DNA of 64,000 nt. It comes from Alloascoidea africana (taxonomy: Eukaryota; Ascomycota; Alloascoideomycetes; Alloascoideales; Alloascoideaceae). Below are positions 20,378 through 64,000 of the stretch, one piece after another (the stretch's first letter is position 1; each line of letters opens with the position of its first letter). Position numbers and translations under genes: made by a program. Below the pieces are notes generated by a model. The model did not search any database. It worked only from the letters and a program-made list of their open reading frames with translations, and had not been told where the DNA came from. The stretch spans positions 1 to 64,000 of the forward strand of contig JAKTTT010000030.1 of NCBI GenBank assembly GCA_030581615.1, in the 5' to 3' direction.

Positions 20378-21063
20378 AATTGATATAATGTGATTGGGAA
20401 ATGTTGTTTGGTCGGTTGATGTTGGATGTCGCTGGAACAGGGTTTTCGTTGGGGGGTTGCAGTCAAGTCGAAATGACGTTTGCGTTGATTTGAAGCAAGG
20501 AACAAATTATTAATATTATTAGAGAAAGTGTAGACTTGGAGCGAGATGGCACTCAAAGACAGAAGGGAACAGAATCGTCTGGATGAAGAATGGATGGAGA
20601 AAAATCAGATGGGATAGGAGAAGGAGAGAAAACCAGAAGGGAAGAAGTGAGGAGGGGGAAGCGAGAGGTTTAAATAGAGAGGTTCAGGAGGGTCGAGCAC
20701 TGGAATCGAGCTAGCTGATTGGCCCCGGCCGGCGTTTGGCTTGCGGGAATATATCCTGTGCGCTACCAGTTGCGCGAGAAAAGTGCGTGCGCGGGCACAG
20801 AGCGCAAAAGTGCGCGGGCGAGGCTGCGTTTACCCGCCGGCGGCCAGCGCTTAACGTGCAGTCCTCCTCCGATCGCCGTCTCGCCTCGACTTTTTCCGGC
20901 GTCGCCAGCGCGAGCAGCGCGAGCAGCCCGGGGGCGCCAGCTTGCCAGCTTGCCAGCCGTGGGGGCAGGCCGCTTGGCAGGGGTGGGACGGCCGAGTGCC
21001 AGAGCGAGCGCGGGAGCCAGCGCTTGAGCGAGAGCGAGATCGAAATCGACATCGATCTCGGTG

Positions 21064-21091
21064 GAGCTGGGAGCTGGGAGCTGGGAGCTCG
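21064..21091. repeat. GGGAGCT heptamer tandem
   Basis: The unit GGGAGCT is repeated about three and a half times inside the GC-rich island upstream of PMA1. Confidence 0.85.
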
Positions 21092-22627
21092 GATCGGGCC
21101 ATCGGTGCTTGTTTTCCCTACGTTCTGATTAGCTCGTTGAGTGTTTTTCTTGTCTGGCCGTTGCCTAATCCGCAGGCCAATTCCACGAACAAGCGGCGCC
21201 CGCCCATTGGCCCGTTCGCCGGGGCCCTTGGATAAGGATAAGGTTGGCTTGGGCGAGACGGCGGCGGAAGACGCGGTGTCCCGGAGCGAGCAGCGAACAG
21301 CCAGCGAGCAGCCTGCGATTGAAAGAGAGCGGCAGCGACGGCGAGTGAATTATGTCATGGATGGGACGGACAGGCTGAGACAGACCAGTACGAATGAACT
21401 AACTAACCAAGTGACTCCAGCTACATACCGCTACAGCCTGAGTCTGCCACTAGCCCAGTCCAATCGACAAGGTAAACAAGCCGTCCGTCAAAGCTGGACA
21501 GGTAGCAGCCACATTCTACGTATTTGGAATCGATTCTGTTCACTTTTATTGTTTTGCTTTGTTTTGTTGTTGTTGTTTTGGTCTGTGTTCATGATCCTTG
21601 GGAGTAAATAGCTGCTTTGCAAACTATCGTTGGAAAGCATATTAGCCGCTCTTTATCGTCAAATTTTTCCTCTGCGCACTTATGACCAAACGGCTACGGT
21701 TACGACAACAACCAATTTCATCTCTGAGTTCAGAAGCAACTAACGGTAAAAGAAATAATATATTGGTAATTTACGATGGAAAGACGGCGAAAGCGAAAAG
21801 TTGAAGGATGATGATGACAATAATGCTTGGCATTCGCTACTTTCTTCACACGACTCGTTGCTCTCCTATCCTATCCATTCCTTTCCAAATACCAAATACC
21901 AATACCTCCGCATAATCACTAAACTGAGAAATTATCTTCAGACAGATCAAACAAAAGTGGAGATCTCATCGCTTTTACAAATTTCGTGCTAGCCCCCGAA
22001 CTTGCCGGTAAAAAACCAATGTGGTAAACGCTAGCGCACTTTTGCCCAAAACGTATAAATATGCGCTGACTCACCCAGTATATGCGCAAAGGTTTTCTCA
22101 ATTTATATCCGAAAATGGCACATTTTTGTCTCCCCCTATACCACCACTAATAAATAAACAAACCAGCCAATATTTATGGAAAACGTAATCAAAACAAGAA
22201 GTCGCTGCTGAGAAAAATATTAATTATTGTATCAGCTCTTGTCCACCGTTTATCGCTAATTATCATCGCTCAATCCGAAACCTCCTAAGCTCATATTCCG
22301 TCACAATATCTGATTTCGTGATCATCTCCATCTCCATAGCCGTTTCCTCCTCCCACTTGGATTTTCAAAGCACAAAGCATGTGTCCTCACTGATCGTTCT
22401 GAATATGCTGCTACAACATGATAAGGCAGAAATTCAAACTATTACCGCGCTTTGTTCCAGTCTTGTGACGTGATGATAATGCCTGTTGAAAGTTGCTGCA
22501 TTCTTGAACAAGAAACTACTCAGGTATGGGTCAGTCCATGTTCTTTTTTTCTCTCCCCCCTGTTATGCTGCTGCTAGCACCGGCTCTGGACACTTTATTC
22601 TGTTGTACGTCTTTTGCTGGCTCCCAT

Positions 22628-22657
22628 CTCTCTTTCTCTTTCTCTTTCTCTTTCTCT
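22628..22657. repeat. CTTTCT hexamer microsatellite
   Basis: About five copies of a pyrimidine hexamer lie in the gene-free region upstream of PMA1. Confidence 0.85.
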
Positions 22658-25600
22658 TGCTCCTAGCTAGCTGTTGTCGTCATCTTCTTTCTACTCTTCT
22701 ACTCTACCACCTTCTAATGCATGATGACATGAAGACTCGAAATTTGACATTGCGGGTCTACAAAACTAGCAGATCAACGCCCTTTTCCGCGCCTTTTCTC
22801 GTTTTTTTACCCTTTTCATCCATAACACCGGGGTTTGATCGGAGAGATTATTCAAATACAAGAACAAAAAGAAATCATGCAATTGGGCAAATACTAAATA
22901 CCAAGCTTTTTCCCAAACGTCTCAAGTCTTAAATTAAAACCTCTCTGTTGCTCCCATAAATCAATCTCAGCCGTAGCAGTACCAGTATTAGTACTACTAG
23001 TCAGTACTAAATGATACATTTTTTTGCGTTCCTATGCCCATGTCCAATTACACTTACACCTGCTTACTTGAAAACAAACAAGGCTCTAACCTTACCTTTT
23101 ATGCGTTCCAAAGTAGGCATTTAAATCTCCTTATACGGGAAAGCAACTTCTTAAAAAGACAAAAACAAATGGGGAACAATTCCACCACCACGCCACGCTT
23201 GGTCCCTTTTCGCCCAGTATTGATGCGATCCAGCATTTTTCCTTTCCAACCGTTGGAAACTGCATCGATGTCATGTTCCACAACACCATCTTATTATTGG
23301 CTTTCTCTTATCTCTTGAAAAATGTAGTCTTACCGGTTAGCTCGACGTTAAATTCAAAAACGGACTGTTCAAAAGCTTTACTGTGTTGACGCCCAGTGGG
23401 AGATCAACGTTTACAACTAGGAATGTTTGTCTAAGATAAAAAAAAAATAATAGAGAAAAGCCTCCCCAGAATGGACAAGATAGGTCAAAGCATGCAAAAA
23501 TCCGGAAAGAACGTCTATATATGACAAATTTCAACAAAACTTGTAGAGGTAGTAGATATAATCCCTGATAAGCTATTTGCTGCTGGTTAGGGAAACCGCC
23601 GGAACCGAAAAAGAACAAAAGGGAAAAAGAAACACAAACATGCTAGAGTGAAAAGCGTCGCATTTTTTGGATGTTTTAGGTTTAACCTTAAACTGAAAGT
23701 TTGTTTTTTTTTTGTCTTTTTTGCGTCTTCTTGGTTGCAACCCTCGTTTTGTTGTTTATTTTTGACCAGTCTCATTGGCATTTATATATAAAGAACTTCT
23801 CTTACGTTTACTTTTTTGTTCATACTTTGATTACTTTGCATTTTTTTCAGTTTGTTCTATCTCTGATAAGTTAACCATGCCGTATTCTGATAAAAGGGAC
23901 AGAGAATTAGTAATGATATAGAAATGGAAACCCATTTTTTTTTTTTTCATCCTGGTGTTGCGTCAGATTTGTGCGTTGGATCTGAACCAAAAAAATCTCG
24001 ACAAATTTTTCTAGAAACCGCTTCACAATGCCTCTTCAGCCTCTCCTTTTGTCAATTCAAAAAATAATCAATTGCAATTAACAAAAACATAAACATAATT
24101 GAAGTATGCTTGGCATGTCAGTCTAATTGGAAAAAAGCAAAGGCTTGGCCCGTTCCAATTCCAAACCGTGATGTAATGTCGGAACAACCAGAGACACACA
24201 GACAAATCCTGTGTACTGAAGATTCTATTATCTTTCATCCTTTTTGATTACTCCGATAACCAGTAGATGCTATTGGAAAGTCTTGTGCTTTCGACCGTCA
24301 TAACCCTTCTCCACAAATTTTTCACATTGATAGATCTCCATCAATCTCGCCCACTTCTTGGCGGTTACAAAGCCATTGTGCTTTCTTTGTACACTACTAT
24401 TTGAATGTTTGGTAAGCGGTTAAAAAGATCTCGAATGCTTCTTCTTGTCTTGCCAAGAAATTCCCATTCGTTTTCTTTCCCGCCTTTCCTGTTATCAGTA
24501 GGCAATGGTAGACCTCTCAGGCACAACGCACAACACAATCGAGGCATTCCCCATCGCCTCAATTTATGTAGCTCATTCTTACTAAACCTCGCTCACTCCC
24601 CATCCTGATCTTTGATCTTGACATTTGCGTTTGTTTTGTTATTGGTTTCCTGACAATTATAGGTGGCTGGTTTCCCTCTACTTATCAAAATATGCACAAA
24701 TGTCTATAGTTTGTTATATACAGTTGCTTACAGCAGACTTCGGTTAGAATACATCTGTGAGTTCCATCTCCCTTAAAGTTTTTTTTTTTCTCTCTCTCTC
24801 CCCGCTCTCGAAATGGGACAAAGTGCTCCTAAACAGTCTTCTTCTCTCTAAAAAGAGAATTAAACAAAACCAAAATTTATTCTTCCATTCGTTAATTAAA
24901 AATAAAGGTGCTCTACCTTTATAACAAAACAGTAAACTTCTGACAAAATTTTTCATTTCCTCTTTAATGAACGCCCATAATTAACTGTGTAAAACAGTCG
25001 CATACTCAAGCATACTTTTTGAGGGTTTTCTCGTTTTATTTTATTTTTCATCAGATACAACCTTAATGCACCAAACACACACACACTTGTCAACCTATTT
25101 TTTCTCTGTCGCTTGTCAGTTGGATTTTATACCCTCATTGGTAGACATCATCATACTAAACTATTGTTACCAGGGCCAAAAAGTCAAAATCTCTACGTCA
25201 CTTTCTTAACCTAAGTTATGCTGTTTATTACTAAAAAAAAAATATGGGGAAAATCCCGCTTCTCCAATCACAAATGTCGTGATCCATATTGTAGAAATTA
25301 AAACCGTTGTGTCTTTTCTATTTTCTATAGAGCATTGCGTGACAGGTTTTTCATTTGCTCTGTTTTCGGGTAGTTATCGGGTTTTGGGCGGACAAATACC
25401 AGAGGCACAAAAGAAGAGCCGAGCGGGAAACTCAATCGGGAACTCAAAGATGAGCCAGACAGGGAACGAGAGAGGGGCCAGAGGGATAATAAACAAAGTG
25501 CTTGAACCCCGTTATTGCGTTTTAATTCTTTCGCAAATTAAAAATCTGCGCTGGCCCTGGATTTGCAAAACAAGACTAAGCTGAGTGGCCACTTTTCTTG

Positions 25601-27015
25601 TCGCTTGTTTGAATGTTTGTTTTATGTCGTCGTCTCAGTGTCGGAATAGAGTAAGGGCCAAGAGATTAAACATTAAGATTGGGGAGAAATATTTTTTTTT
25701 CCCTCTTGTTATCTAACTACCACTGCATAGAAGTTTAAGTCATACGAATTTTTTTTTTTCTTCATTACTTTCCGACTTTGAACGAGAAAGAGACCAGTTA
25801 AAGAGAATTCAGGATCTGTCAAATTCCTTGCTGCAGGATGATGACAATGTTGATCTAGTTTGTTCTGGTTGGTGCACATCCAAATGGCGTCAGAGACCGC
25901 CCCAATCCTCACCAGGGCCTGAAAAGAAAATCCAACGCTCATGTGTCATCACTTTAAAACTGAAAAGTGAAACTGTTTTCGGAATCGGGGTCGGAAGCAG
26001 AGTCTAGGGACCTGGGACAGAATAGGGGAAAGTGCGTTCCCGAGCCCTCTGTCAAAGAGACCGGTTTAATCGGGTTGCGACATTTTTTTTTTCTGTTTTG
26101 TTCATTTTCCTGTTGCGGTGTCACTCAAAGCGCCATCTGTGGACATACCTGAGGTTTAAGCTTTTGATTGTTGTGCTCTATTTGTAATGCCAAGAAAGAA
26201 TACACATCTTATTAGTATTAGGAATCAACCAATCTCTCGAGGAATCAAAAGAGAAATGTGAGTATGCAGCTTAGTTCACTCTGTGTATAATTTTACGTCA
26301 ACTTCCGGGGTTCGGATAAATATCGCTCGGTCAATGACACATTTAAGAAACATATATGCGCGCCAATTTGTGCCATACAAGAATGAATGAATAACCTCCC
26401 TTTTATTCAATTACGGGAGAAGACGGCCATCTTCCAGTGACAATTCGCCGCATCAGGTCGATTTAAACACAGATCTGCGCCATACACTGGCGCCGTGCAA
26501 AGAGATAAAGATCCAGGGGGGAAAAAAACGCTCAAGGGGAAAGAAATAACATATTGCACTGTTCAATCACATTATGATGAAAACCAGCGATGGGAATAAT
26601 GTTTATTAGTATAAATAATTGCCTGGAATGGGGGAAACCCCTCCTTCTATAACTACCCTAAATCAAAAGTGCTTTTCTTAGTGTTTCTTGCCCTTGCTCT
26701 ATAACTTCTTAACAAGTAGATGAGACACGGGGAACCAAGCGTAAGACCGTAAAAAAAAAAAGAAATCAAGGGTTGATGGGGGAGGAGAATGAAAATGAAA
26801 CAAAAAAATGCGTAAGTAAAGCAAAAAGTTTTGATTTTGTACCGGTGGTAAACAGATGTAATTATTAACCAAAAGTCAGAAGAAACGGCAATAAGGAAAA
26901 GCAAAGCAAAAGCGAAAGTACATTTTGAACTCAATTTTCTCAAAAACACACTATTGTTAGCATGTTCCTCAAGTCCGGGGTGATCAACAAGATTTCGCAT
27001 TGTTGTTTTCAATGT

Positions 27016-57283: not shown

Positions 57284-58588
57284 TCAGTTAGCAGACACCG
57301 AAACCCGCTCCTTAGCCAACATGTCAACCAATAGAGCGTTGGGCGTGTTGTCGGCAGCAGCGCTCAAACCCAATTCGCCCTGCTTGACCTTGTAAGCACG
57401 CACATCATCAAAGTATTTGTCGAACAGGAAGGATGAATCAAGAGGACCTCCCTTTGCTTCGGGGTGGAACTGTGTGGAGAATATGGGCCTTGTCTTGTGA
57501 ATCATCCCTTCGTTCGATTTGTCGTTAAGGTTGATAAAGTACTCCATAAAGTCAGGATGAAGAGTGGTAGCATCCACAGCGTAACCGTGATTCTGGGAAG
57601 TTATATGGCATTGGCCTGTTGTCAGATCCAACGCGGGGATGTTATGGGCTCTGTTTCCATACTTCATCTTTATGGTCTTTGCATCTGTTGCCAAGGCCAA
57701 GAGCTGGTGGCCAAGACAGATGCCGAAAATCGGGCCATGGAAGGACTCGATGATTTTTCGCAAATGATACACTGTTGAGGAACAGTGGGTTGGGTCACCT
57801 GGTCCGTTTGAAATGAAGATGCCATCAAAGTGATGGGCGATTTTATGAATGGGATAGTCATATGGAAACACAGTGATAGAAGCACCTCGGCTCACCAGAG
57901 ATCGCAAAATGTTCTCCTTAACACCGCAGTCAATCACGGCAATGTGGAACTTGCCCGTTGAAGACACATGGAAAGGCGCCTTTGTGGAAACCTTGTGGAC
58001 GAGGTTGATAGACCCCGGATCACTGAACGCTTCGTCTTCATCGGCGTCGTACTCCTCTCCGACCGTGATTCTGGCCAACGAGGAACCCTGCTCACGGAGA
58101 TAGGTGACAATTGAACGAGTGTCGACTCCGGTGATAGCAGTCACACCTTCGTTTTGGCACCATTCGCCCAGGGACTGAACGGCAGTCCAGTGAGAGTACT
58201 TCATGGCGGCATCTGCGACAACAATGCCGATGCACTGGACATGAGGGCTTTCAAAGTACTTTAAAAGCTTGTACTGATCCGTGACTGCTGAAGGAACACC
58301 GTAGTTACCGATAAGGGGCTGGGTGAATACGAGAATCTGTCCCTTGTACGAGGGATCCGTCATGGATTCGGGATAGCCAACCAGTGAAGTGGTAAACACA
58401 GCTTCACCGGAAACGTTCTTGTTGGCGCCAAAAGATCGGCCATGGAAGACAGGACCGTCTCTGATGGTAAAGGTTGCACGGTCGAGTCCCAGGTTGGACG
58501 ACTGGACAGTGGCCAGGCCACGAGAAAAGTTGTAGACTGCTCCTCCGATCTTTCTCTTGCAAATTGGTCTGACGAGTTTAGAAAGCAT
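57284..58588 (-). CDS. CPA1: CPA1, arginine-specific carbamoyl-phosphate synthase small subunit
   Basis: This 434-aa glutaminase subunit supplies ammonia to Cpa2 for carbamoyl phosphate in arginine synthesis. The N-terminal half is the CPSase small-chain domain ([33 protein letters not shown]). The C-terminal half is a class I amidotransferase. It has GDPTHCSS, the nucleophile Cys in [11 protein letters not shown], and the His/Glu pair in FHPEA. About 35 leading residues ([26 protein letters not shown]) are basic and Ser-containing, like a mitochondrial presequence. S. cerevisiae Cpa1 is cytosolic, whereas filamentous fungal homologues are mitochondrial. Expression is probably controlled by the spliced uORF immediately upstream and by a Gcn4-type site. 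Confidence 0.97.
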
Positions 58589-58607
58589 TTTGTGTATCAG
58601 TGTTTAG

Positions 58608-58779
58608 TTAATGGGAATTGGTTTTCCAAATGTGATCTACAAACAGGGTTAAAAAACGGTTAGTTTATCATGGAGAAAAGTAGGTAGAGGCAGATTCCAT
58701 GGGGAATCAACATAGCAATTCATAGCCTGTACTTACCAGAGAGATAGTCGAGACGAGTGAACAATGAGGTGAAAGGCAT
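58608..58779 (-). CDS. Arginine attenuator peptide uORF of CPA1, 2 exons (23 aa)
   Basis: The uORF is encoded by 58779-58737 and 58636-58608, with a 100-nt intron between them. Its signals are donor GTAAGT, branch point AACTAAC and acceptor TGTAG. The spliced peptide has the core LDYLSDHIWK. This is almost identical to the conserved core of the arginine attenuator peptides of Neurospora arg-2 and yeast CPA1 (QDYLSDHLW/QDYISDHIW). It contains the key Asp, with Leu in place of the usual Gln before it. The stop lies 19 bases before the CPA1 start codon. In known cases, high arginine makes this peptide stall the ribosome at its own stop codon and reduces CPA1 translation. Neither exon alone gives the full core. 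Confidence 0.93.
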
Positions 58780-58855
58780 AAAAACCAAACAAGTTTTGAT
58801 GTTGCTGGTTGAAAAATTATCCTCTGCCCAAGTTAAATAAGCGACCTCAAGCATC

Positions 58856-58862
58856 TGAGTCA
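58856..58862. promoter_or_regulatory. Gcn4-type site upstream of CPA1
   Basis: A perfect TGAGTCA lies 77 bp upstream of the attenuator uORF start. It is consistent with general amino-acid control of CPA1. Confidence 0.6.
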
Positions 58863-61800
58863 TTATCCGGGTAAACGCCGGGGAAAAATCTGACAGGCCG
58901 GTAGAGCTAAAAATGAGCTGGCGATAGGTGTGTTTTTTTTATCTCTATTGTGTCATTGTTAGACCATCAGGTTTTATTTGATATTATTTGAAATGGTAGC
59001 TATTTGATTGCACTTTGCACTTGGGGTTATACACTGATGTGCTCCGAAGAGCATGATGGACACAGCACGCGACTTGTAGGGACATTTTAGAACATCAAAA
59101 GATCAAGTTTTGTTCCACAAGTAGGTGAAGTTTGTGGAATCTGCAATTTATCCATATTTTCAAGATCGATTCTCTAAAAGTAGATATCCCATATATTGCC
59201 ACAGAACTATTGTTTATTGCAACAGATGAATGTTTTTTCTAGTTAAGCATGTGCTTTAAAGAAGCTGCATGGCTCAACACCATGACTATCGATGAGTCAG
59301 ACTCCAGGTCTCAGAAAATTTCAACAAATTTTGAAAACCATGAAGTTGGCTCTAAAGAGGAACACTCGTAGATCAACACCTTCATCGAACCACATCTTTT
59401 TTCCGTTGTTTTATAATACTGCAGTGATTTGATTTGACTTGAAAATGCAGACTCTTAAGTATTATGGGTCCAAGATCCCAAATCTCTAAATCTTGCCCTT
59501 TTCAGCTCTAATTTTAGTTTTAGTCAGTTTGTATCCTGGATTATTTCAAAACTGTTTAGGCGCATTGGAAGCAAACTATATGCTCTGTCGTTTGTTGTTT
59601 CAGATCCTATTCTTATCTGAATATCGATCTGAAGCTGGAATACCCAGGGACTAGATCTTGCACTTTTGCTCCAACATTTGGAATTGGCCAAGGTTTATTT
59701 GGGTGAAACGGGAGGGAGTCCAAAAAACATATTCAAGTAAATAATGTTTGTGATGGTTAGTTTTGAAACTTTTCAGACTTGTAACTAGAACAAATTGAGG
59801 GGATAGTAAAATTGCGTTCCTAGATTTGTATCATCGATAGTACAGAATGATGATGGCTATAAAAAACTTTAGGAAAAGGAACTATATAGGCAAAGTTACC
59901 AGGGTGTGACAGCCCGTTTTATCGGAAGGGTTTTTGTCATCTTCCCCAGACTATTATTCTATGTGGTGTAGAATCATTTTCCAACAGAAACACACAGTGG
60001 CATTATTAAACCTTGAAAGATGATGATGCATCATAAACTTTGTTCCAAAAGTGAGGGGGAAACTCAAAGATTAATCAGGGACAACAATTCTTGTCAACAT
60101 GCCAATGCCTTTTTAATCAGTTCATGATTGAAAGATTACCTTTTTACAACGTTTTACAAAATTTCTAAATTTGCACGCATTGTTGATCTATCGATTTAGG
60201 GGAGAAGTATGCGATGCGATATGCTGCGCTTGTCTTTTTTATGAATCTGAATCTGGATTCTTCACTAGCCACCTGCCAAGCATTCCTTGGTCGCATTCTT
60301 CCAGAAGAAGACAAAAATAGAAAAAAAAAGCTGAATGTAGTAGTTAATTGAGTTATCAGCAGTATTATTTTTGCATCATTAAGGACTTCCTATCTTTTAG
60401 TGTAAATAATTGGCAAATGGGGTCAATCAGCTAACACGTTTGCGCTCTGCTTTCGAGCTTTTGTGTCATCAAACGACATATTCATACACAACCAATTGTG
60501 CCCGGATTTGATCAGACCATTTTTTTTCTCTGTATAAGAGGGTCAGTGATCATAGCATATAGTTTGTTTATGTGATTGATTTGTTTGATTGAAGGAGGGG
60601 CAATATGGAAGGTTGTGTACCGAGGGAAAAAAGGATGCCAACATCAACATATGAAGAGCTTCATATCGCATCTTCACAAGAAACCATTTTGACATGCTTG
60701 CATTTGAACATGCGATGTTACCGTTGTCGATCTATCAAGGTGGGGGTTCAGCAGATCCACAGCCAATCTCTATACTCTCTTGGCCAAAAAAGGAAATAAA
60801 TAGTGTGTTAGGTGAAAGAAGTGTTTGTAAATACAAAAATACTGTTTTTACTCCACTAGACCCTGAGGTTTACGATAGCTTCACTATATAGAACGCGATA
60901 AGTATTTGGCATGATAGTGATATCGACGGACATAAAATGTTCTTGATGTGTAGTGCTATATATTCTGCTGCATGTACATAACCTAGACCAGATCAGGATG
61001 AAAAAGTCAACATCCGCGAACTTCTGAACGGCTGCCCAGACCGGGGACGAGACGCTGTTTGGCGAGCAGGGCGGGGTAGCCGGTGGCGGTTTTCTTCCCA
61101 GCCTTTTCCTTTTGAGGACCGTGGATCGAGGGTGGACCCAGCCGCAAAGAGCGACTACACAAGGCCCGTGAGCGGAGCGGGGGAAGAGAGAGATGGAAGA
61201 AAAGACAGCCCGCTGCTCTCTCGGAACGGAAGCAGATGGCGCCTGTTCGCTCCGACATCCACCACCGCCGCCCCAGACGCTCAGCACAATGCCAGACTCA
61301 GACTGCTGCTCCTTCAGCTTCCTGCCCGCTGTGGCTTCCCGCCCGCTGTAGCCGTGGGCCTCTCGTCGAGCAAAAGTTCCAAAAGTTCCAAAAGTTCGTC
61401 CCGACGGGGCTCTGTCTCAATCGGCAATTCCAGATCTCGGGCTAGGTCCCAGCGCAAAGTCATGCTGATCCCAGCCCGGGCTGGGAGGCCCCAGGCTCCG
61501 TCAGAGAGGAGACACACGGCTGCCGCCCGTTGTTCGTGGATATATCGCAGAGGGCCGTGGTTTTTTGTATTTCACAGCGCTGGTGTATTATTATTCCAAC
61601 GAGCAGATACGACCCTGCACGCAGAAGCTTAACCTAGATTCGCTTGCCCCCAGCCGCTGGCTCACCTCCACTTTTCATCCCAGGTCTCTCTTCAAGACCC
61701 TCCGCCTAATGGCGTCATCGCCAAGAGAGCGTGGAGTGTTCCGTGTTCCTTGAAAGTGAACTCAAGTGCTATGCGTTTCATATACTGGTGCTCCCTAAAC

Positions 61801-62137
61801 TTTAAGCCCGCTTATTTCGCGTTTTTGTTTGCGTGTGGTGGAGGGGTTAAAATGTAAAAGAAGCCTGTTTTTGCTTACAGTTTTGGTCTCTGTGTGGGGT
61901 CGTGGGATTCCACAGTCAACTACACCATCTCAATTCCTCCTGGTGCCTCTTAGCATAACGTTTGCTTTCGGAATATTCGCCTATCCTTCTCATTATCATC
62001 TCTGTACCTGGAACTTGAATATCTGAATTATGCAAACCAGATCTATATAATCTCGTCCTTCTGCCCTCTCTCTTTTTTTTTGCCCCCCTTTCCTCTTATC
62101 TCTTTTTCTATTGACATTACTTCCCTACTATACAACC
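58863..62137. other. Large intergenic region CPA1 / monooxygenase
   Basis: About 3.3 kb separate two divergent genes. Nothing convincing is coded. A short frame (60605-60799) has a TATAAGAG about 70 bp upstream, but overlaps another frame (60694-60891), and neither is recognised. A GC-rich island occupies about 61000-61560 and includes an AAAAGTTCC nonamer tandem (61372-61398). A TATATAAT lies at 62043-62050, about 90 bp before the monooxygenase ATG. Confidence 0.5.
61372..61398. repeat. AAAAGTTCC nonamer tandem
   Basis: Three adjacent nine-base units, the last with one change, lie in the GC-rich island upstream of the monooxygenase gene. Confidence 0.9.
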
Positions 62138-64000
62138 ATGACTTTCAATCTCCATCCTCCAGTTCAATTCGCTCCCCATCCTGAGAACATAAAACCTGCT
62201 CAGGTTTATGGCCAGTACGAGGCCGATTCCGAAAACCTTACAAAGAACACGCTCTCAGACCTCGTAGCCGACTGGATTTCTGCATTTAACTCTGCTTTGG
62301 AAACTTTTTACACAGATCCATCTAAAAATGCACCAAGCATTGGAAAGTTCCTGACTGAGAAGAGCGCTTGGAAGGACCATCTTGGTTTCGAATGGGACTT
62401 GCACAGTTTCCATGGCCCTGAAAAGATCATCGACGCTTTGACCAAGTTCTCTTCTTCTAAACTGGGTTCTTTCGAGGTTGACGAGTGGGCCGAGCCTAAG
62501 AATTACCCTAAGGGTATCCAAAAAGTCACTGTTCATCCTGCCACTGCTGATACAGCTCCAATCGAGTGGGTCCATGTCTTTGGAAAATTCAAGACTAGTG
62601 TTGGCTGGGGTCGCTCCATTATTCGACTTGTATCTGTGAAGGACACAACAACTGGCGTTCCTAGCGGACTCAAGGTGTTGAGTATTTACACAGTTTTGGA
62701 GGACATTGACCAAGGACCAGATGCCAAGAAGTATATTGAAAAAGCTGGTCCCAACAGGCCTCTCGGTGTCAACCACGGAAACAACGTTGGCAGACAATCT
62801 TGGCTTGAAAGGAGAACAGAAGAGACCCAGACCATTGGCTTGGGCGAAAACCAGCCAACAGTTCTTATCATTGGCGCAGGACAGGCCGGTCTCACTGTTG
62901 CTGCCCGTCTCAGAACTCTTGGTATCAGTTCCTTGATTGTCGAAAAGAACAAGAAGGTTGGTGACAACTGGAGAAACCGTTACAAGTTCTTGGTTCTTCA
63001 CGACCCTGTCTGGTATGATCACCTCCCTTACATCAAGTTCCCTCCTTCATGGCCAATTTTCACACCCAAGGACAAGTTGGGTGACTGGTTCGAATCTTAT
63101 GCCAAATCAATGGAGTTGAATGTATGGAATGAGACCACTGTTGGAAAGTCAAAGTATGATGAAAAGACAAAGACTTGGTCTGTTGAGGTCTTGGACCTGA
63201 ATGACAAGAGCAACGTTCGCGTCGTCAAGCCTCGTCATGTTGTGTTTGCCACTGGTGCCTCTGGTGAGCCCAACTTGCCCACTTTTAAAGATCAGGAGAA
63301 GTTCAAGGGCCAGATAGTCCACTCCAGCCGTCACACAACTGGTGCAAACTGGAAGGGCAAGAAGGCCCTTGTCATCGGTGCTGGTAACTCTGCTCACGAC
63401 ATTGCACAAGATTTCCACGAGCAAGGTGCTGAGGTTACTATGATCCAGAGATCCAGTATTACCGTCATCAGCGCAGATTATGGTGTCCCCGTTTTAAACA
63501 AGGGTCTTTTCGAGGAAGGAGGTCCAGAAACAGATGTTGCAGACTTGGTAATGTGGTCGCTACCACTATACCTTTCAAACCTTGTCCAGCAGCAGAAGAC
63601 CAGGCTGATTTCTCACATTGATCGTGAAATTCTAACGGGTCTCACCAAGGTTGGATTTAAATTGGACTTTGGTTTTGGCGGTAGTGGTATCTCAGGCAAG
63701 GCCATGCGCAAGGGTGGTGGTTACTACTTTGATGTCGGTGCTTCCAAGCTTTTGGTCGAAGGAAAGATCAAGATCAAGAGCGGCCAAGGAATTTCCTATT
63801 TCACGGAGAATGGTGCTGTTCTGGATGACGGCACAACATATGATAACATTGATATCATTGTCCTTGCTACCGGTTACAAGAGCATTAGAGATACCGCTGT
63901 GAAAGTGTTGGGAGACGATATTGGAAGCAAAATCAAGACCGTTTGGGGCTATGATGATGAAGGTGAAATGCAAGGAATCTGGAGACCATCTGGACATGAA
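62138..64000 (+). CDS. Flavin-containing monooxygenase (N-terminal 621 aa, runs off the window)
   Basis: The frame is open from the ATG at 62138 to the right edge, so the C-terminus is missing. About 190 N-terminal residues resemble a SnoaL/NTF2-like cone (LVADWISAFNSALETFY, then HPATADTAPIEWVHVFGKFKT). A class B flavoprotein core then starts with the FAD loop VLIIGAGQAGLTVAAR (about 245). The monooxygenase fingerprint appears as FKGQIVHSSRH and the NADPH loop as VIGAGNSAHDIAQD. VFATGASGEP and IIVLATGYKS are the linking ATG-type motifs. Fungal members of this family (CzcO/YUCCA-like) oxidise small nucleophilic or carbonyl substrates. The substrate here cannot be read. No intron is visible. 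Confidence 0.92.
   Translation, partial: MTFNLHPPVQFAPHPENIKPAQVYGQYEADSENLTKNTLSDLVADWISAFNSALETFYTDPSKNAPSIGKFLTEKSAWKDHLGFEWDLHSFHGPEKIIDALTKFSSSKLGSFEVDEWAEPKNYPKGIQKVTVHPATADTAPIEWVHVFGKFKTSVGWGRSIIRLVSVKDTTTGVPSGLKVLSIYTVLEDIDQGPDAKKYIEKAGPNRPLGVNHGNNVGRQSWLERRTEETQTIGLGENQPTVLIIGAGQAGLTVAARLRTLGISSLIVEKNKKVGDNWRNRYKFLVLHDPVWYDHLPYIKFPPSWPIFTPKDKLGDWFESYAKSMELNVWNETTVGKSKYDEKTKTWSVEVLDLNDKSNVRVVKPRHVVFATGASGEPNLPTFKDQEKFKGQIVHSSRHTTGANWKGKKALVIGAGNSAHDIAQDFHEQGAEVTMIQRSSITVISADYGVPVLNKGLFEEGGPETDVADLVMWSLPLYLSNLVQQQKTRLISHIDREILTGLTKVGFKLDFGFGGSGISGKAMRKGGGYYFDVGASKLLVEGKIKIKSGQGISYFTENGAVLDDGTTYDNIDIIVLATGYKSIRDTAVKVLGDDIGSKIKTVWGYDDEGEMQGIWRPSGHE

Follow-up and report, generated by a model that had tools for sequence, protein, structure and literature searches.

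The leader of the carbamoyl-phosphate synthase gene CPA1 in Alloascoidea africana raises two connected questions: whether a short upstream open reading frame (uORF), which lies in two pieces on the DNA, encodes an arginine attenuator peptide (AAP), and whether the intron between those pieces adds a control of its own. In the known systems, high arginine causes ribosomes to stall at the stop codon of the AAP uORF and translation of the main ORF falls, and the D13N substitution abolishes the stalling (PMC7969011). The locus was analysed within the first 64,000 nt of contig JAKTTT010000030.1 (assembly GCA_030581615.1; this whole stretch is called the window below), with further searches of the 23.18-Mb assembly. 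An Rfam search at the gathering threshold and a tRNA scan of the window returned no matches.

The identity of the downstream gene is clear. The ORF next downstream of the uORF (57284–58588, minus strand; 434 codons) matches two Pfam domains, the carbamoyl-phosphate synthase small chain (CPSase_sm_chain, 9e-44) and a class-I glutamine amidotransferase (GATase, 5.7e-51). Since the two domains together make up the architecture of CPA1, the ORF was assigned to this gene, which encodes the small subunit of the enzyme. It is the sole full-length match among the four found in the assembly. A second copy of CPA1 was considered and rejected: the second match, at 50% identity over residues 37–400, falls within a 2,319-aa open frame on contig C32 that we interpret as URA2, a pyrimidine enzyme, and the remaining two matches are partial and weak. 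The first 30 residues of CPA1 (58499–58588) include six Lys or Arg and no Asp or Glu, thus resembling a mitochondrial presequence, and the protein may be mitochondrial in this yeast. The N. crassa enzyme, ARG2, is mitochondrial, whereas that of S. cerevisiae is not.

Other genes of the assembly were seen in pairs. The two actin genes (contigs C9 and C88) share 88% nucleotide identity and the two genes for the 49-kDa subunit of complex I (C18 and C34) share 83%. The flanks, about 1.5 kb in length, show hardly any similarity in either pair. Paired actin and 49-kDa genes alongside a single CPA1 could reflect either an old gene or genome duplication or a hybrid ancestry. The five best PDB matches of the 49-kDa protein are all named NUCM, a name that we take to denote the Yarrowia lipolytica protein.

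The uORF starts at position 58779 on the minus strand. Exon 1 (58737–58779; 43 nt) holds codons 1–14, MPFTSLFTRLDYLS, and the first base of codon 15, a G. It is followed by a putative intron of 100 nt (58637–58736, minus strand) with a GTAAGT 5' site, a branch-like AAACTAACCG site and a TGTAG 3' site, after which exon 2 (58608–58636, minus strand; 29 nt) supplies the remainder of codon 15 through to TAA, reading DHIWKTNSH and stop. Joining 58779–58737 to 58636–58608 gives 23 codons, MPFTSLFTRLDYLSDHIWKTNSH, then TAA. The phase-1 intron interrupts codon 15, which encodes the second Asp (of LS-D-H), inside the AAP core. Without splicing the frame reads MPFTSLFTRLDYLSGKYRL and stops five codons beyond the last full codon of exon 1. 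A 19-nt spacer (58589–58607, minus strand) separates the uORF stop from the CPA1 ATG at 58588. The first-pass annotation had proposed a 23-codon uORF joined across a 100-nt GT-AG intron, and its coordinates and translation proved exact. It had also placed the end of the uORF 19 nt before the CPA1 ATG, which is borne out, and had held that the unspliced leader would change frame and lose the stalling core; DHIWK is indeed absent from the retained reading.

The peptide itself points to an AAP. When it was searched against PDB chains, the single match up to an E-value of 10 was the arginine attenuator peptide 2XL1 (E = 7.9e-4). The alignment, SLFTRLDYLSDHIWKT to SVFTSQDYLSDHLWRA, has 10 of 16 residues identical, including the essential Asp and DYLSDH-W. 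The two peptides are also close in length (23 codons against 24 residues in 2XL1), and the uORF stops soon after the core. To this similarity are added a position in the predicted leader of CPA1, a short uORF and a weak start context, all of them features of AAP uORFs. Known AAP uORFs, too, have a weak start context. A Gln directly before the essential Asp is not known to be required and was not treated as defining; the residue in this position is Leu. The claim that the Leu in place of the usual Gln is unusual holds in the comparison with 2XL1, the only AAP compared, and is limited to it. An Arg in place of a Ser of 2XL1 likewise precedes the essential Asp.

How far such a match might arise by accident was judged from the window and from simulated DNA. 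All ATG-initiated peptides of 16–40 aa were enumerated on both strands of the window, either as contiguous frames of no more than about 24 codons or with a join across a single GT-AG intron of 47–301 nt with its GT no more than 75 nt from the ATG. Against residues 6–21 of 2XL1, the uORF peptide scored 63 and the runner-up among the 34,840 enumerated peptides scored 33, a margin slightly flattered by the fact that the 16-residue reference was delimited by the PDB match itself. Only one join within this enumeration reached an AAP-level score. Forty order-1 Markov sequences with the dinucleotide statistics of the window, read on one strand each, yielded 823,544 peptides, the best of which scored 41. 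Across the genome, a DNA pattern for exon 2 matched once, at the uORF exon itself, with no match for its control. The corresponding pattern for exon 1 and the 5' splice site also matched once, at the uORF, but its backward control matched once too, so this pattern alone is no evidence. One DNA pattern of the DYxSDHxW type, representing a contiguous AAP core, had no match in the genome.

Whether the interruption is a genuine intron can be assessed from the other introns of this genome. Eight reference introns were decoded, from the two actin genes (two introns each), RVS167 (two), MO25 and RPS19, the gene names resting in part on Pfam matches. The set is small, its junctions were hand-picked for frame continuity, and its branch sites are motif matches within the last 60 nt rather than mapped positions. 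Intron 1 of RVS167, whose 5' end lay outside the view, intron 1 of MO25, whose 5' site is ambiguous (GTACCA being the likeliest), and an intron of the RPS19 copy on contig C86, of which the 3' end alone was read, were excluded. All eight introns start with GTA and end with TAG, six of the eight have GTANGT, and every one has a (C/T)TAA(C/T) motif 12–27 nt from its end. The uORF intron, with GTAAGT, a CTAAC at 24 nt from its end and a terminal TAG, agrees with this pattern, and its length of 100 nt lies within the 63–550 nt of the reference introns. The exact hexamer GTAAGT occurs in none of the eight. On these signals the uORF intron is very probably real, and we infer that it is spliced, and constitutively so. 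A search with the CPA1 protein for leaders of related species, in viral and genome contig sets, produced 31 and 56 pattern matches, respectively, none of which was confirmed as a relative. The first-pass reading of the locus as a CPA1 uORF that encodes an AAP and is split by a canonical intron is supported by the 2XL1 match, the peptide scores, the exon-intron anatomy, the domains of CPA1 and the splice signals. Judged from sequence, the uORF upstream of CPA1 encodes an AAP.

The frame of the uORF stays open upstream of its ATG for a further stretch (58780–58863, minus strand), in which in-frame ATGs occur at 58863 and 58854. The stretch overlaps a TGACTCA at 58862–58856 on the minus strand, with the uORF ATG about 77 nt further downstream. 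This motif is a Gcn4/CPC1-type site, and for that reason the stretch is more probably promoter than a transcribed extension of the uORF. The six-base form of the motif has two matches in the 1.1 kb searched, against about 0.5 expected by arithmetic, which makes the motif weak evidence. Transcription of the stretch would add residues to the N-terminus of the AAP. Further upstream of CPA1, some 3.4 kb (58864–62254) contain none of the listed ATG ORFs of at least 100 aa. A longer gap of this kind lies at 21053–26652, and either gap may contain spliced or short genes.

Taken together, we consider it highly likely that the CPA1 leader carries a conventional AAP, encoded by a uORF with two exons that are spliced together constitutively. 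The Leu for Gln and the Arg for Ser before the Asp, and the absence of GTAAGT from the reference introns, count against this explanation. The same two substitutions relative to 2XL1 are what favours a decayed AAP, one that is still encoded and has become non-functional, either through these residues or because transcription starts below 58779. Such decay would have had to spare a core that is kept in frame across an intron, with both splice sites intact, directly beside the gene to be regulated; moreover, the TGACTCA upstream of the uORF ATG weakly favours a transcription start above that ATG. We therefore regard decay as very unlikely. The idea that the resemblance is accidental, the product of a short ORF arising at random and an intron that is not genuine, can draw on the shortness of the peptide alone. 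With a score of 63 set against 33 for the window runner-up and 41 for the best simulated peptide, and with the uORF stop 19 nt from CPA1, its probability is negligible.

The conventional AAP would act on the spliced leader as follows. Some scanning ribosomes would leak past the weak ATG of the uORF, which has T at position −3, and initiate at the CPA1 ATG, which has A at this position; it is because of this difference that leaky scanning past the uORF and an efficient start at CPA1 are to be expected. Other scanning ribosomes would translate the uORF. At high arginine, a ribosome with the finished peptide would stall at the UAA stop and block the scanning ribosomes behind it. Judged by the size of a ribosome footprint and by the distance needed for reinitiation, a spacer of 19 nt is short. 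Reinitiation would be poor and the stalled ribosome would nearly touch the CPA1 start site, so that tight repression is expected. The stalled uORF would probably also promote nonsense-mediated decay of the CPA1 mRNA. Among CPA1/arg-2 orthologues, those with AAP uORFs are reported to be substrates of nonsense-mediated decay, and ribosome occupancy of the Cryptococcus uORF is reported to be strong (PMC7049704; review PMC11550727). The peptide, the gene, the exon-intron anatomy in the DNA, the start contexts and the spacing on which this scheme builds are established directly; we infer that the peptide stalls ribosomes with arginine.

The first-pass annotation had gone further and suggested that splicing adds a second layer of control, since a response to arginine would be confined to spliced leaders. 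The latter part is true. It is also close to trivial, because an unspliced leader would have five ATGs ahead of CPA1, the one at 58779 and four within the intron (58723, 58713, 58700 and 58671, minus strand). With the four added ATGs, CPA1 output from the unspliced leader would probably be close to nil, rather than insensitive to arginine, and such a leader is best seen as unproductive RNA rather than a second regulatory state. The suggestion of a second layer found no positive support: the splice signals are of an ordinary kind, and the predicted structure of the unspliced region 58560–58800 is unremarkable (z = −0.05), so that a special fold near the splice sites was rejected for this region.

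Regulated splicing of the uORF, in which the intron is retained in certain circumstances, so that CPA1 is switched off or the leader becomes blind to arginine, is accordingly improbable in our estimation, and the ordinary signals and the lack of unusual structure speak against it. Its arginine-blind variant is implausible for a productive mRNA, given the five ATGs. In the other variant, retention would give the MPFTSLFTRLDYLSGKYRL peptide plus four upstream ATGs and hence an off switch. In that case, to which we assign a similarly slim chance, two off switches would be stacked, the spliced leader being repressible by arginine and conditional retention silencing CPA1 through the four extra ATGs. 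Nor is the idea absurd, because a precedent exists in the leader of N. crassa SAM decarboxylase, which contains the SDC motif and likewise combines splicing with uORFs. There, alternative splicing removes uORFs, whereas splicing in A. africana CPA1 builds one; the authors of that work state that the motif under study exerts no direct effect via alternative splicing (PMC5640933). Fungal TPP riboswitches are also described as controlling both splicing and uORFs (PMC5640933). If retention of the CPA1 intron were regulated after all, splicing and metabolite-sensing translation would be joined in a single leader.

For the constitutively spliced AAP uORF that we favour, the closest known systems are the AAP uORFs of S. 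cerevisiae CPA1 and N. crassa arg-2, which are alike in the downstream gene, the length class and a core with the essential Asp. The A. africana uORF differs from these in being split by a phase-1 intron within the core, and from 2XL1 in having Leu, not Gln, before the Asp. The peptide, the gene and the mechanism are thus of a known kind, and what sets the A. africana case apart is the two-exon uORF together with the Leu before the Asp. Hood, Spevak and Sachs wrote in 2007 on the CPA1/arg-2 gene and its uORF and are said to have discussed gene structure; as they may have done so, we do not claim split AAP uORFs as new. No intron within an AAP uORF appeared among the matches listed in the open-access library searched, from which that study, the main comparative one on fungal AAP genes, was absent, nor in the consulted portions of PMC2075485, PMC7049704, PMC11550727, PMC5640933, PMC7969011, PMC5487733, PMC13261765 and PMC8370653. 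Outside the fungi, the uORF of Toxoplasma gondii ApiAT1 encodes an arginine-responsive peptide that bears some resemblance to the AAP and has a critical Asp, but it governs an arginine transporter of the parasite, unlike the uORF of CPA1 (PMC8370653).

The locus shows that annotation restricted to contiguous uORFs can miss AAP uORFs. The A. africana peptide is a natural variant, with its Leu before the Asp and its 19-nt spacing, that could be used for structure-function work. At the strength given above, the finding would carry a textbook example of control by a nascent peptide over to a yeast with complex I genes, in which the uORF is divided between two exons.
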